A stretch of 64,000 nt of DNA, from positions 1 to 64,000 of the forward strand of contig DYJV01000003.1 in the NCBI GenBank assembly GCA_020722945.1, written 5' to 3'. Origin of the DNA: Candidatus Methylomirabilis sp. (lineage in GTDB: Bacteria > DYJV01). The translations under genes and the position numbers were made by a program. Below the pieces are notes generated by a model. That model did not search any database, was not told the origin of the DNA, and saw nothing but the letters and a program-made list of their open reading frames with translations. This document shows positions 24,793-31,069 of this stretch, one piece after another (within the stretch, counting starts at the first letter, position 1; every line of letters begins with the position of its first letter).

Positions 24793-26694
24793 TTAATTTT
24801 TATTTGATTTTTTACTATCAACTTCTTTATCCATGTAGATAGATTTGAAAAGCCATTCGTAATAATTATCCCTAAACTCTCTATAAGAGTCAAGTATTGT
24901 AACTATGTTGTTGGAAATTTTATTTTCAGATATTTTGAAAAAGTTCTTTTGATCAACTTTTTGCCTATTAATCTTGATATATTCAGAGATATATTCTACT
25001 GTCTTCATAAAAGGATTTATAGAATCAGAGAAAATCAATCTTGAAAATCTTGCAGGGTGAGTCCATTTGAAAAATTCTGCAGTATATTCGTTGCAGAAAG
25101 GTTTTATGAATGGTCTCATATAGTTTTCATAAAAATATTTATTTGCTTTGGATATAAAATTAACATACTCAAAATCCTCTTTATCGTAATCTAACTTTAT
25201 ATCTTCAAGATTTTTCTCTATAAATTCAACTTCAAATTGAGCTTCTGAAATGTTTTTATTGAATGTTTCACTCTTTATCTTCATTTCATACAAGCCAGGG
25301 GCAAGGTTTCTTATATTTTCGATATTTTCAATTATAGCTCTATGCTCTCTATTTGCCACCTTACCTGAAACAAAGATTCCGAGATGTCCTATATCAGGAT
25401 GTATAAGATAAATTATTCTCTGCCCATTATTTTTAAGGTCTTCAGTAGTCTTATAAACTTCACTTATCCACTGTAAACCCTGCTCTGGAGGCGATATATT
25501 GTCACCCTCTGATGCAAATATCACAAAAGGTTCTTTTATTTTTCTCAAATCTATCTTTTCACCAAGTGGTGAAAGCATCTCACCCTTTTCAAGCTTGTTG
25601 CCAATAAAGAGATTATTTACGATAGCAACAATTTCACTCTCAGTAAAGAAATAGAATCCTGTCCACCATTTTTCAAATTCGAGGTAACGAGAATCCTCTT
25701 TATCAACATTATGAAAAACATTAAACTCTTTCTTCCAAAATGTATTTGCAGGATTTAACATTTCAAAATTATAAACAAGCCATGCTCCATCAAATATGCC
25801 ATTACTTAAATCTGAAATAAGCATTGAGAGCCATACTCCACCTGTCAATCCACCTGTAACTCTCATCGGATTGATTTTATCCCTACCAGCCCAGTAAGAT
25901 AAAGGAGTCCCATTGATAACAAGAGGACCCGTAAGATCAGGTCTCGTTGCAGCAATCATTGAAACGATCCAGCCTGCCTGACAATTTGCATAAATAACTG
26001 GTGGATTATCAGGGTGTAAATCGTGCATTATATCAATGAATGTAAGGAGAGCCAATCCAACATCATCAAGAGTCTGACCGGGACAAGGCTCTGGAAAGAA
26101 ACCTACTAAATAACATTGATGCCCCTCTTGCATTGCTATACCAGCTTCTGAATCTTTCTTAAAAGCACCAATCCCAGGTCCATGCCCTGCTCTTGGATCA
26201 AATATCATAATAGGTCTTTTATTAGGGTCTATTTCAACACCCTTGTCAGGAAGAATTTTGTAGAGGATAAAATTTGCTGGTCTTTCAAATCCTCTTGCAT
26301 CCATAATCTCTTCATATTTGAAGTTAACAAGTGGTGGCATACCTTTTTGGTAATGATCAAGCATTATATTACCACGCTTTCTTAGAACATCAATAAAGAG
26401 AATGTATCTCTGACAATAATCAACAAAATAGTTAATAAACTCAATATAGTTATCAAAAATATCTTTAAATGAATCTGTAGAAATTTTGACATAATAATCT
26501 CTTAAAATTTTATCATTAAGAGGATTTTTGTCAATCTTATCAAGTAATAGTGCAACATCAGAAGGATTTTTGTAATCAATCTTTAGTTGTTTAAAAAGAT
26601 CCTCAAAAAAATTGAGAAATTTCTTGTTGTTCGGTGAAAATAACTTATCTCCTATCTGAAACGGATTTAACTTGATAATTTCATTATTCAGCAT
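24793..26694 (-). CDS. DUF3141-type alpha/beta hydrolase, polyhydroxyalkanoate synthase-related
   Basis: MIFDPRAGHGPGIGAFKKDSEAG; VIYANCQAGWIVSMIAATRPDLTGPLVINGTPLSYWAG; FASEGDNISPPEQGLQWI; HPDIGHLGIFVSG. Confidence 0.85.
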   Translation of the reverse strand: MLNNEIIKLNPFQIGDKLFSPNNKKFLNFFEDLFKQLKIDYKNPSDVALLLDKIDKNPLNDKILRDYYVKISTDSFKDIFDNYIEFINYFVDYCQRYILFIDVLRKRGNIMLDHYQKGMPPLVNFKYEEIMDARGFERPANFILYKILPDKGVEIDPNKRPIMIFDPRAGHGPGIGAFKKDSEAGIAMQEGHQCYLVGFFPEPCPGQTLDDVGLALLTFIDIMHDLHPDNPPVIYANCQAGWIVSMIAATRPDLTGPLVINGTPLSYWAGRDKINPMRVTGGLTGGVWLSMLISDLSNGIFDGAWLVYNFEMLNPANTFWKKEFNVFHNVDKEDSRYLEFEKWWTGFYFFTESEIVAIVNNLFIGNKLEKGEMLSPLGEKIDLRKIKEPFVIFASEGDNISPPEQGLQWISEVYKTTEDLKNNGQRIIYLIHPDIGHLGIFVSGKVANREHRAIIENIENIRNLAPGLYEMKIKSETFNKNISEAQFEVEFIEKNLEDIKLDYDKEDFEYVNFISKANKYFYENYMRPFIKPFCNEYTAEFFKWTHPARFSRLIFSDSINPFMKTVEYISEYIKINRQKVDQKNFFKISENKISNNIVTILDSYREFRDNYYEWLFKSIYMDKEVDSKKSNKN

Positions 26695-26703
26695 GTAACC
26701 CTC

Positions 26704-26994
26704 TTATTTTTTATTTGTTGTTTTGTCATCTAAAGAAACACTCTTCTGATATACAGAATCAATATACTCCAAACCTTTTAATACCATATTTTTGTAATCA
26801 CTCAGAGCCATTTCAGAATTTTTTATCCACTCTTTGTAAACCTTTAATAAATTTTCTCTATATACTTCAGGCTGTTTCTGAATAAATATCTCTACAAATT
26901 TTAACTGCTGTTTGTTTATTAGGTTGAAGTTGTCCATGGATAAAGAGTAGAATAGTTTTATATTTTTAAAAAAGTTTTCATCATAGTTCATCAT
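26704..26994 (-). CDS. Small phasin-like protein, tandem paralogue 1
   Basis: 96 aa; ..FFKNIKLFYSLSMDNFNLINKQQLKFVEIFIQ..LLKVYKEWIKNSEMALSDYKNMVLKGLEYI..; homologous to the next three ORFs; position in the PHA locus. Confidence 0.75.
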   Translation of the reverse strand: MMNYDENFFKNIKLFYSLSMDNFNLINKQQLKFVEIFIQKQPEVYRENLLKVYKEWIKNSEMALSDYKNMVLKGLEYIDSVYQKSVSLDDKTTNKK

Positions 26995-27077
26995 AAACCT
27001 CCTAATATCTTAATAAAGGATATAAAGTAGAAATTTTATACCCACATATTCAATTAAAAATATCTGTTAGTCGTTCA

Positions 27078-27350
27078 CTACCTGTTAACATCAGAAATTG
27101 CTTTCTGGTATACAAAATCAATATACTCCAAACCTTTTATTACCATATTTTCATAATCTGTGAGTGCTAACTCAGAATTTTCTATCCACTCTTTGTATAT
27201 TTTGAGTAATCTCTCCCTATCCTTTTCAGGCTGCTCTTGAATAAATAGCTCTACAAATTTTAGCTCTTGTCTATTTATGAGATTGAAGTTATCCATAGAA
27301 AGAGCATAAAATGACTTTCTGTTCATAAAGAAGTTTTTGTCATTGTTCAT
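27078..27350 (-). CDS. Small phasin-like protein, tandem paralogue 2
   Basis: 90 aa; FYALSMDNFNLINRQELKFVELFIQEQPEKDRERLLKIYKEWIENSELALTDYENMVIKGLEYI. Confidence 0.75.
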   Translation of the reverse strand: MNNDKNFFMNRKSFYALSMDNFNLINRQELKFVELFIQEQPEKDRERLLKIYKEWIENSELALTDYENMVIKGLEYIDFVYQKAISDVNR

Positions 27351-27434
27351 ATTTAACCTCCTTAAATTAGAGTTAATATGATATTCAATAAACTTCTTAT
27401 AAATAAAAAATTGTCAAATATCAGGTAAAATAGA

Positions 27435-27704
27435 CTATTTTTGTTTATCTACTGCTTTTTTATAAGAAGTCTCTATGTAGTCCAAACCTTTTAGAACCAT
27501 ATTTTTGTAATCATTAAGTGCTATTTCAGAATTTTTTGTCCACTCCTGATAAATTTTTAATAAGTTGTCTTTGTAAGCATCAGGCTGAGTCTTTATAAAA
27601 AATTCGACCATCTGCTCCTGCTGCTTATTTATAAGATTAAAATTGTCGAGTGTAAGGTTGTAGTAATTCTTGATATTGTTAAAAAAATTGTCGTTGATCT
27701 CCAT
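27435..27704 (-). CDS. Small phasin-like protein, tandem paralogue 3
   Basis: 89 aa; YYNLTLDNFNLINKQQEQMVEFFIKTQPDAYKDNLLKIYQEWTKNSEIALNDYKNMVLKGLDYI. Confidence 0.75.
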   Translation of the reverse strand: MEINDNFFNNIKNYYNLTLDNFNLINKQQEQMVEFFIKTQPDAYKDNLLKIYQEWTKNSEIALNDYKNMVLKGLDYIETSYKKAVDKQK

Positions 27705-27721
27705 ACTCGTCTCCTTATTTA

Positions 27722-27982
27722 TTAAACTTTCATGTTTTTTGTAAATACTTCATTAAGATTGTCTAAACCTTTTAGAACAACATCTTTAAACATATCCAAA
27801 CCCTTTTCAGTAGAAGTTACCCATTCGTTGTAAACTGACATCATATAATCTGAATTTGGGACTTTACTGTTCTTAAGCATCATTTCAAAAATATTTTTCT
27901 GCTGCTCTGTAAGCATTTTAAAATTTTCAAAAGCCAACTCATAAACATTTTTTAAATTAACAAACATATTCTCTGTTCCCAT
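27722..27982 (-). CDS. Small phasin-like protein, divergent tandem paralogue 4
   Basis: 86 aa; VYELAFENFKMLTEQQKNIFEMMLKN..MMSVYNEWVTSTEKGLDMFKDVVLKGLDNL. Confidence 0.72.
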   Translation of the reverse strand: MGTENMFVNLKNVYELAFENFKMLTEQQKNIFEMMLKNSKVPNSDYMMSVYNEWVTSTEKGLDMFKDVVLKGLDNLNEVFTKNMKV

Positions 27983-28000: not shown

Positions 28001-29053
28001 TTATTTTAAAGAATGCTCAAATATCCATTTCCCCACAGATGGTGCTAACTCTTTCTGAGATTTTGAACTTACATATAATCCTATATGCCCACCCTTAAAC
28101 GATAACATAGTCTTATCTTTTGAAGATACTAAATCGTTTAAAGGTTTTGTAGATGCAGGTGGGACAAGATGATCTTGCTCTGCATATATTGTAAGTAGTG
28201 GCATTGAAATATTTTTTAAATTCACTTTCCTTCCATTTAGAGTAAATTCACCCTTTACAAGCTTATTACCCTGATAAAGATCTTTTAAGAACTTTCTATA
28301 TGCTTCACCTGCTTGTGCAGGACTATCAAATATCCACTTCTCCATTCTTAAAAAATTTTTTATATCTTCAACTGAAGTGGTATCCTTGACAAAATTGTAA
28401 TATTTTTCAAAATTAAGCTGAAAAGGTTTAAGCATCAGATAACCAATATTCATAAAATCACCAGAAACATTACCAGAAGAATCAACTAAGGCATCAATAT
28501 CTATATATTTTGACCATACATTTAGAAGACCATCCTCAACATCAAAATCAACAGGAGTAACCATAGTAACAAGATTTTTTATCTTTTCAGGATATAAAGC
28601 TGAATAGATAACAGAGAACGTCCCACCTTGACAAACACCAAGAAGGTTGATCGCATCAAGTTTATGCTTATCTCTTAGGTAATCAACGCAATTGTTAATA
28701 AACCCATCTATATAGTCTTCCATAGTGAGGTATCTGTCAGCTCTTTCTGGGTATCCCCAATCTATTATATAGATATCTAATCCTTGGTCAAGAAGTCTCT
28801 TTATGAAACTTTTATCAGCTTGAAGATCCATCATATAATATTTGTTGACAAGGGCATATACAATAAGAAGCGGAGGGTGTGGCTTTTGGGAATCTTTGTT
28901 CTGGTCGTAATGATAAAGTTTGACATTACCAAATTCAAGTTCTGTGCTTTTTGGAGTAGGCTGAACATCTATTGTATCAATATTTTTCATATCATTCATA
29001 AGATTAAATAATTTATAGTTGATATCAAGAATATCATTAGTAAAATTAATCAC
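28001..29053 (-). CDS. phaC: Class III poly(3-hydroxyalkanoate) synthase subunit PhaC
   Basis: LLGVCQGGTFSVIYSALYPEKIKNLVTMVTPVDFD lipase-like box with Cys; DWGYPERADRYLTMEDYI; YAEQDHLVPP; GGHIGLYV. Confidence 0.95.
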   Translation of the reverse strand: MINFTNDILDINYKLFNLMNDMKNIDTIDVQPTPKSTELEFGNVKLYHYDQNKDSQKPHPPLLIVYALVNKYYMMDLQADKSFIKRLLDQGLDIYIIDWGYPERADRYLTMEDYIDGFINNCVDYLRDKHKLDAINLLGVCQGGTFSVIYSALYPEKIKNLVTMVTPVDFDVEDGLLNVWSKYIDIDALVDSSGNVSGDFMNIGYLMLKPFQLNFEKYYNFVKDTTSVEDIKNFLRMEKWIFDSPAQAGEAYRKFLKDLYQGNKLVKGEFTLNGRKVNLKNISMPLLTIYAEQDHLVPPASTKPLNDLVSSKDKTMLSFKGGHIGLYVSSKSQKELAPSVGKWIFEHSLK

Positions 29054-29056
29054 TGA

Positions 29057-30028
29057 TTACTCCTCCATTTTTGTTTTCTTTACAGATTTTGCTTTTGCAT
29101 CTGTAGGGACTTCACCTTTTAAAGTTTTTATAATATCTTTTAGTTCTTTAATCTCTTTTCTTATCTCCTGATTATCTTGTTTAACAATGTAAAGCTCTTT
29201 GTAAGCTCTGTCAAGTTCTGTTTTGGTAGCAATATTGGAATCCTTTAGGACTTCGTAGGTGTATCTATCAAGGGATAATTTTAGTTTGGAGCCTGCTTTT
29301 ACAAGCTCTCCAAGTGTAGAGCCAAAATCTTTACTTTTAAAAAAACTATGAAAAACAGATTCATTTTTGTTTACCCATTTTTTAAAAAATTCATCAAAAT
29401 TTTCTATATTAGGATGTTTGATAATTTCATTAATAAAATCTTGGAACCCTTTTTCAGATTCTTTGTTTATGATTGCTTTAAACTTCTCAACATTCCCCAT
29501 ATAAGCTTTAAAATCTTCAACAATATTTTTTATCATATCATTATACTCCCTCGTCAAACCTATTGAAGGGAGCTTCAACATATCATCAAAAAATTCAAAA
29601 TTAACTTTTGAGAAATTATTGAGAACACCAAGATTACTTTCACTATTCTCAATAAAAAACTTTAAATTATTATAGATATTCATATCTGAAAAAGGTTTTG
29701 TAAAATCATTAAATACTTTTTCAGGAGTCAAATCAGAGAGGTTGAATATCTTAAGAACTATATCATTATAATTTTTCTGAAAATTTTTGAATAAATTCTG
29801 ATAATCAAAAACATCAAGTTTATTTTCTCTTTTAAAAAAAGCATCATTGAAGTTTTTATAGAAACTAAATAGGTCTGTGTATACTTGTGTCCCTTTATCT
29901 ATCTGAAAATAAGGGGTAAACATATCTCTCTGTATTGACGAAAGATCAAAGTATTTATAGTTGTTTGGTTTAAAAGAATTTTGCCACATTTCAAAAAACT
30001 TTTTCTGCATTTCCGTAAAATTGTCCAT
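29057..30028 (-). CDS. phaE: Class III PHA synthase subunit PhaE
   Basis: Adjacent to phaC; Phe/Lys-rich helical protein with C-terminal coiled coil ATKTELDRAYKELYIVKQDNQEIRKEIKELKDIIK typical of PhaE. Confidence 0.85.
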   Translation of the reverse strand: MDNFTEMQKKFFEMWQNSFKPNNYKYFDLSSIQRDMFTPYFQIDKGTQVYTDLFSFYKNFNDAFFKRENKLDVFDYQNLFKNFQKNYNDIVLKIFNLSDLTPEKVFNDFTKPFSDMNIYNNLKFFIENSESNLGVLNNFSKVNFEFFDDMLKLPSIGLTREYNDMIKNIVEDFKAYMGNVEKFKAIINKESEKGFQDFINEIIKHPNIENFDEFFKKWVNKNESVFHSFFKSKDFGSTLGELVKAGSKLKLSLDRYTYEVLKDSNIATKTELDRAYKELYIVKQDNQEIRKEIKELKDIIKTLKGEVPTDAKAKSVKKTKMEE

Positions 30029-30142: not shown

Positions 30143-30904
30143 TCATAATCTCAAACCACCATCTACTTCTATAGTTCTGCCATTAACATAGTCATTTTTA
30201 ATAATAAAAAATAAAGTATCTGATATCTCTTTTTTATCTGCAAACCTATCAGCAGGTATTGTCTTTTTGATTTTTAGTTTTATAGTTTCTGGGATAAACT
30301 CTGTCATCTCTGTATCAACATACCCTGGAGCAATAGCAACTGACCGTATCTTGTATGGTGCAAGTTCCTTTGCCCATACAACAGTCATTGCAGCTACACC
30401 TGCTTTTGAAGCAGTATAATTACTCTGTCCAAGATTTCCAACTCTCGATATAGAAGATATTGATACAATTACCCCATGTTTATTGAATTTAACCATTTGA
30501 AAAGCAGCTTCTCTCGCACATAAAAATACACCTGTAAGATTGACATCTATAACCTTCTTCCACTTCTCAAAAGGCATTCTTACAATATTGCCGTTTTTAT
30601 CGGTTTTCACCATAAAAGAATCAGCAGTAACCCCACTATTGTTTACAGATATATCTACCCCAGAATACTTTTCAGCAACAGACTCATAAAAGTTTATTAC
30701 ATCATATTCAAGGCTTACATCAGCAACATAAGAGTCTACACTTACACCCTCTTTTTCAAAAAAAATTTCAGCATCGTGAAGATTTTTCTTACTTATGTCA
30801 CATATAGATACTTTTGCACCTGCTTTGGCAAGATCTAATGCAAATTGTCGTCCAAGTCCCCTTGCACCCCCTGTAACAATAGCTATTTTATTATTAATAT
30901 TCAT
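30143..30904 (-). CDS. SDR: acetoacetyl-CoA reductase / 3-oxoacyl-ACP reductase-like (PhaB/FabG)
   Basis: MNINNKIAIVTGGARGLGRQFALDLAKAGA; SNYTASKAG; PGYVDTEMTEFIP; next to phaE; internal ATG preferred. Confidence 0.88.
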   Translation of the reverse strand: MNINNKIAIVTGGARGLGRQFALDLAKAGAKVSICDISKKNLHDAEIFFEKEGVSVDSYVADVSLEYDVINFYESVAEKYSGVDISVNNSGVTADSFMVKTDKNGNIVRMPFEKWKKVIDVNLTGVFLCAREAAFQMVKFNKHGVIVSISSISRVGNLGQSNYTASKAGVAAMTVVWAKELAPYKIRSVAIAPGYVDTEMTEFIPETIKLKIKKTIPADRFADKKEISDTLFFIIKNDYVNGRTIEVDGGLRL

Positions 30905-31069
30905 TACCATTATCTCCAAAAAAAACATCCATTACTATTCTATAAGTAATAATAACAAGAATAGAAGTCAAGAGATATTTAATAAATTAATTAAAATTAA
31001 TCACTAATTTTAGAGATAATCAAGTAATTACAAGAAAATATAAAGAAAAAAATCAGATGATAATTTAGA

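Follow-up and report, generated by a model that had tools for sequence, protein, structure and literature searches.

What do four short genes, lined up behind a class III PHA synthase in Candidatus Methylomirabilis sp., contribute to the PHA granule, if they act there at all? The genes lie in the 64,000-nucleotide stretch of DNA analysed here (the window; positions 1 to 64,000 of contig DYJV01000003.1), where a first-pass annotation, made from the sequence alone, had described four consecutive same-strand ORFs of 86–96 aa beside a class III PHA synthase and inferred unusually short phasins, amplified in tandem, that might form mixed granule coats or adjust granule size. The ORFs are indeed there on the minus strand (m1 to m4), and so is the operon context, with the array directly behind an intact class III pair, phaE–phaC:

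24793–26694, minus strand: DUF3141 PhaC-like alpha/beta hydrolase (PF11339, 688 bits; Cys at the nucleophile position, ANCQAG), 9 nt after m1
26704–26994, minus strand: m1, 96 aa mini phasin-like protein of the amplified type (ORF, paralogue comparison)
27078–27350, minus strand: m2, 90 aa mini phasin-like protein of the amplified type (ORF, paralogue comparison)
27435–27704, minus strand: m3, 89 aa mini phasin-like protein of the amplified type (ORF, structure prediction, paralogue comparison)
27722–27982, minus strand: m4, 86 aa mini phasin-like protein of the phaC-proximal type (ORF, paralogue comparison)
28001–29053, minus strand: phaC, class III PHA synthase catalytic subunit (TIGR01836, 475 bits, cut-off 365; GxCxG nucleophile motif present as GVCQGG)
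29057–30028, minus strand: phaE, class III PHA synthase subunit (PF09712, 77 bits; TIGR01834, 60 bits, below the cut-off of 155)
30143–30928, minus strand: fabG/phaB-like 3-oxoacyl reductase (PRK08217, 314.6 bits)

Read along the minus strand, the gene order is fabG-phaE-phaC-m4-m3-m2-m1-DUF3141-nitroreductase, and the adjacency of phaC (TIGR01836) and phaE (PF09712) to the array marks a class III PHA synthase locus. From phaE through the DUF3141 gene, the intergenic gaps measure 3, 18, 17, 84, 83, and 9 nt. These short gaps make a single operon likely, and fabG-phaE-phaC-m4-m3-m2-m1-DUF3141 are probably co-transcribed. Both large gaps (84 and 83 nt) fall between the triplicated copies m3, m2, and m1; a promoter might lie inside either of them, but a promoter scan returned background level only. 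The DUF3141 hydrolase that follows the array may be a second, putative PHA-active enzyme; in the sister genome introduced below, its orthologue is located on a different contig (L117:2519-4381).

The four mini proteins are tandem paralogues, with three close copies and a divergent one nearest phaC, as had been proposed. Identities are 72% for m1/m2, 62% for m1/m3, and 53% for m2/m3, against 24–31% between m4 and each of the other three. Searching the organism's own genome with m3 retrieves the remaining minis at E-values of 1e-33, 6e-28, and 2e-13. At the DNA level, three tandem repeat copies are found, 359 and 354 nt apart; m4 shares only a short motif with them. The alignment of m1–m4 holds 21 invariant columns, of which 13 are left once the two sister-genome copies (G1a and G1b) join. 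The own-genome matches, a second genome with homologues in the corresponding position, and the strong Shine-Dalgarno sequence ahead of each gene (4/4) argue that the array is not a product of chance.

That second genome (G001, contig JALVYZ010000154.1) belongs to the same taxonomic order and is the only close relative among the genomes compared; all other relatives, of up to 300, are related at domain level only. With a single relative closer than domain level, the lineage of the window is very poorly sampled, possibly of phylum rank. The operon of G001 reads fabG-phaE-phaC-G1b-G1a-plsY, with two minis at the same place, so that the copy-number comparison proposed by the first-pass annotation gives four minis in the window and two in its relative. 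Beside the pha-operon fabG, G001 also carries a PhaR-like PHB_acc_N gene (PF07879; L013:10214-10558); the assembly to which the window belongs yielded no such gene.

In a maximum-likelihood tree of all six minis, G1b groups with m4 at a support of 99.8/100, and m1 groups with m2 (98.7/99). The split that sets m1, m2, and m3 apart from G1a and the m4 type is less well supported (80.8/74). Across the genomes, identity is 53% both for G1a–m3 and for m4–G1b. Judged from these sequences, G1b is orthologous to m4, and G1a to the m1–m3 type. The tree topology and the cross-genome identities suggest, as the simplest reading, a common ancestor with one gene of each type, of which the second would have tripled in the window's lineage. 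The proposed tandem amplification thus holds for the m1–m3 type, while the m4 type has stayed single and the ancestral state appears to be a pair of distinct types. A recent duplication is unlikely, as DNA identity between the copies is just 61–76% and dS is high or saturated (m1/m2: dS 1.8, dN 0.17; rough estimates, as the genes are short and AT-rich). The copies look old and seem to have evolved under purifying selection.

What kind of protein do these genes encode? From the alignment of all six sequences, AlphaFold2 predicts a hairpin of two helices (residues 7–38 and 42–88, pLDDT 88.7), with the turn at residues 39–41 of m3. The helices are amphipathic, with 18-residue hydrophobic moments mostly between 0.3 and 0.5, a common property that counts as weak evidence for phasin membership, and the proteins are near-neutral and rather polar. 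Foldseek found no significant match in the PDB (E-values of 0.38 or worse), and the AlphaFold model of PhaE made for comparison was unusable (pLDDT 52).

Family searches gave no credible match for the minis in Pfam and NCBIfam, phasin families included. The PF05597 phasin model matched none of m1–m4, G1a, and G1b in hmmscan (up to an E-value of 10), and the minis were likewise absent from a genome search with that model; the PhaE model (PF09712) matched none of them either. For Phasin_2/PhaP1 (PF09361), hmmscan returned no match, and HMM and profile-profile comparisons stayed at shuffle level; homology to this family was rejected, as no similarity was detected. The profile search that the first-pass annotation had put forward therefore ended with no mini passing any phasin model. 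Relatives are equally scarce: 290 genomes yielded marginal fragments within larger frames only, PDB sequences yielded none, and no orthologue was found at the other class III or class III-like pha loci examined. A scan of GTDB contigs, which depends on short conserved patterns that distant relatives may escape, found the sister genome only, and a plasmid search, made with one query sequence and open to the same escape, found no relative. No publication on comparable mini- or short phasins turned up in literature searches. Among the genomes searched, only two have the short version, and both belong to one poorly sampled lineage. In another genome, a locus (L036:4747-9158) holds two phaC genes, with short helical ORFs of the PhaE/PhaR type (95–170 aa) ahead of each; one of these ORFs shows weak Phasin_2 similarity, and a PhaR-like regulator-type ORF lies upstream.

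Further comparisons were made with home-made HMMs of PF05597-type phasins (30 sequences; one, L055, from the sister genome and the rest from other genomes) and of PhaE-type C-termini, which were run on the minis, with the reversed minis, 300 shuffles, and ORFs alongside. G1b scored E=2e-4 against the phasin HMM (best of 300 shuffles 0.12) and E=1.6e-4 against the PhaE-type HMM (best shuffle 0.017); the other five minis, taken individually, were at background. The phasin alignment covers residues 7–84 of the 88 in G1b with one gap, and the PhaE-type alignment residues 2–56. Conversely, a mini profile was searched against a set of 31 phasins plus 524 background fragments; phasins took 10 of the first 15 ranks, and of the other five, three belong to pha loci, as PhaE or phasin-like proteins. 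The profile's mean phasin score was 3.6 bits, versus maxima of 1.6 for column shuffles and 2.8 for seven-residue block shuffles (60 trials each, all 120 below the real profile). The AUC alone is uninformative, because the reversed profile nearly equals the forward one (0.92 vs 0.93), and the signal lies in the mean scores and top ranks. Profile-profile comparison of minis and phasins gave P 0.005–0.014, reached by 0–1% of shuffles. Since several similarity tests were made, the result is read as suggestive, short of proof: a weak, order-specific similarity suggests that the minis and the PF05597 hairpin core share descent, and part of it may be shared helical composition. The description as unusually short and phasin-like holds up, with a remote similarity to the PF05597 hairpin, and no phasin family model recognises the proteins.

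Among the known proteins closest to the minis are the PF05597/TIGR01837 phasins. Both are small and helical, and the phasin hairpin core aligns with the minis over nearly their full length, although the minis score below every model threshold. The phasins, however, carry a C-terminal leucine-zipper segment (LPTKxDxxxLxxxI); the alignment stops before it, and the minis end at helix 2. Unlike the mini genes, the PF05597 phasin genes sampled do not lie beside phaC. By its published description (PMC5658603), Aeromonas PhaP is likewise a small helical phasin, made of a single domain and encoded alongside phaC, although larger (GA13, about 13 kDa; according to that review, the solved structure is a tetramer of amphipathic helices) than the minis with their 86–96 aa. 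The C-terminal region of PhaE (PF09712) also forms a helix-turn-helix, its turn flanked on both sides by a related motif, whereas PhaE as a whole spans 265–430 aa and has a long N-terminal part that the minis lack.

Considering that the hairpin matches the N-terminal core of PF05597 and that the place behind phaC is conserved, we regard the minis as probable phasin-like proteins of the granule surface, miniaturised and lacking the zipper, that are co-expressed with PhaEC (probability of roughly 0.68). The main rival, which we consider rather unlikely, casts them as small partners of the PhaEC synthase, either accessory subunits or activators (PhaE-, PhaR-, or PhaM-like), that bind the enzyme and prime or localise it instead of forming a bulk coat. 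It would account for their being encoded directly after phaC, for the score of G1b against the PhaE-type C-terminal HMM, and for a PhaE-type protein as the best non-phasin match of the mini profile, noise aside. Nevertheless, an intact phaE is already there, the phasin alignment of G1b is the longer one, and three near-duplicates would be easier to explain by a need for bulk dosage than by a stoichiometric role.

Less probable still is that the minis merely share the operon, as small helical proteins that do not act at the granule surface but are regulatory, membrane-linked, or hairpins of the WXG100 kind. WXG100-type hairpins are among the best Foldseek matches and an EspB_fam model reached E=0.003, but those Foldseek matches fall short of significance, the EspB_fam match, at 17 bits, misses the cut-off of 450, and the turn lacks WXG, the conserved W sitting in helix 2 as YxEW; a WXG100/ESX (ESAT-6) identity was rejected on the first and last of these grounds. 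The same reading draws on recognisable PF05597 proteins that adjoin ubiB in both genomes, and is countered by the position behind phaC that both genomes keep for the minis. Genes for PF05597 'phasins' directly adjoin ubiB (ABC1 kinase) at L115:1787-2089 in the window's genome (G000:C50), at L116:3536-3844 in G001 (G001:C424), and at L118:4187-4495 in a third genome (G124). Among 30 PF05597 loci sampled, 8 have a ubiB neighbour and none has phaC within about 1.5 kb, and many 'phasin family' proteins may thus have a UbiB-related role instead of one in PHA. With so many PF05597 proteins next to ubiB instead of pha genes, similarity is insufficient to assign a PHA role, and it is the operon context that carries it.

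How would a granule-surface protein of this kind work? The minis would be two-helix amphipathic hairpins, equivalent to the PF05597 core without its leucine-zipper segment, produced together with PhaEC and coating the nascent granule. Amphipathic helices are thought to mediate phasin binding to PHA (PMC5658603); here, the apolar helix faces would rest on the polyester, with the polar faces turned to the cytoplasm. Such a coat might limit coalescence and thereby set granule number and size. The m4 and m1–m3 types, both conserved in the lineage, would probably differ in function or assemble together, and the tripling of the latter could raise dosage or diversify the coat. We tentatively extend this to a specific, though doubtful, proposal: two co-conserved types of zipper-less two-helix granule proteins, acting as a mixed coat or as a coat plus synthase-adaptor pair, dedicated to class III PHA granules, lineage-specific, and missed by phasin models.

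These short phasin-like proteins form a genuine family, conserved and confined to one lineage, and 'mini-phasin' serves fairly as a working name, although they fall outside the formal limits of the phasin families. Should they prove to coat granules, they would rank with the smallest proteins of the phasin-like kind, and their hairpin would mark the minimum for PHA binding, with no zipper for oligomerisation; it would be of use as a short granule-display tag and as a probe of which part of a phasin binds the polymer. They also suggest that phasin models overlook coat proteins of under-sampled lineages.
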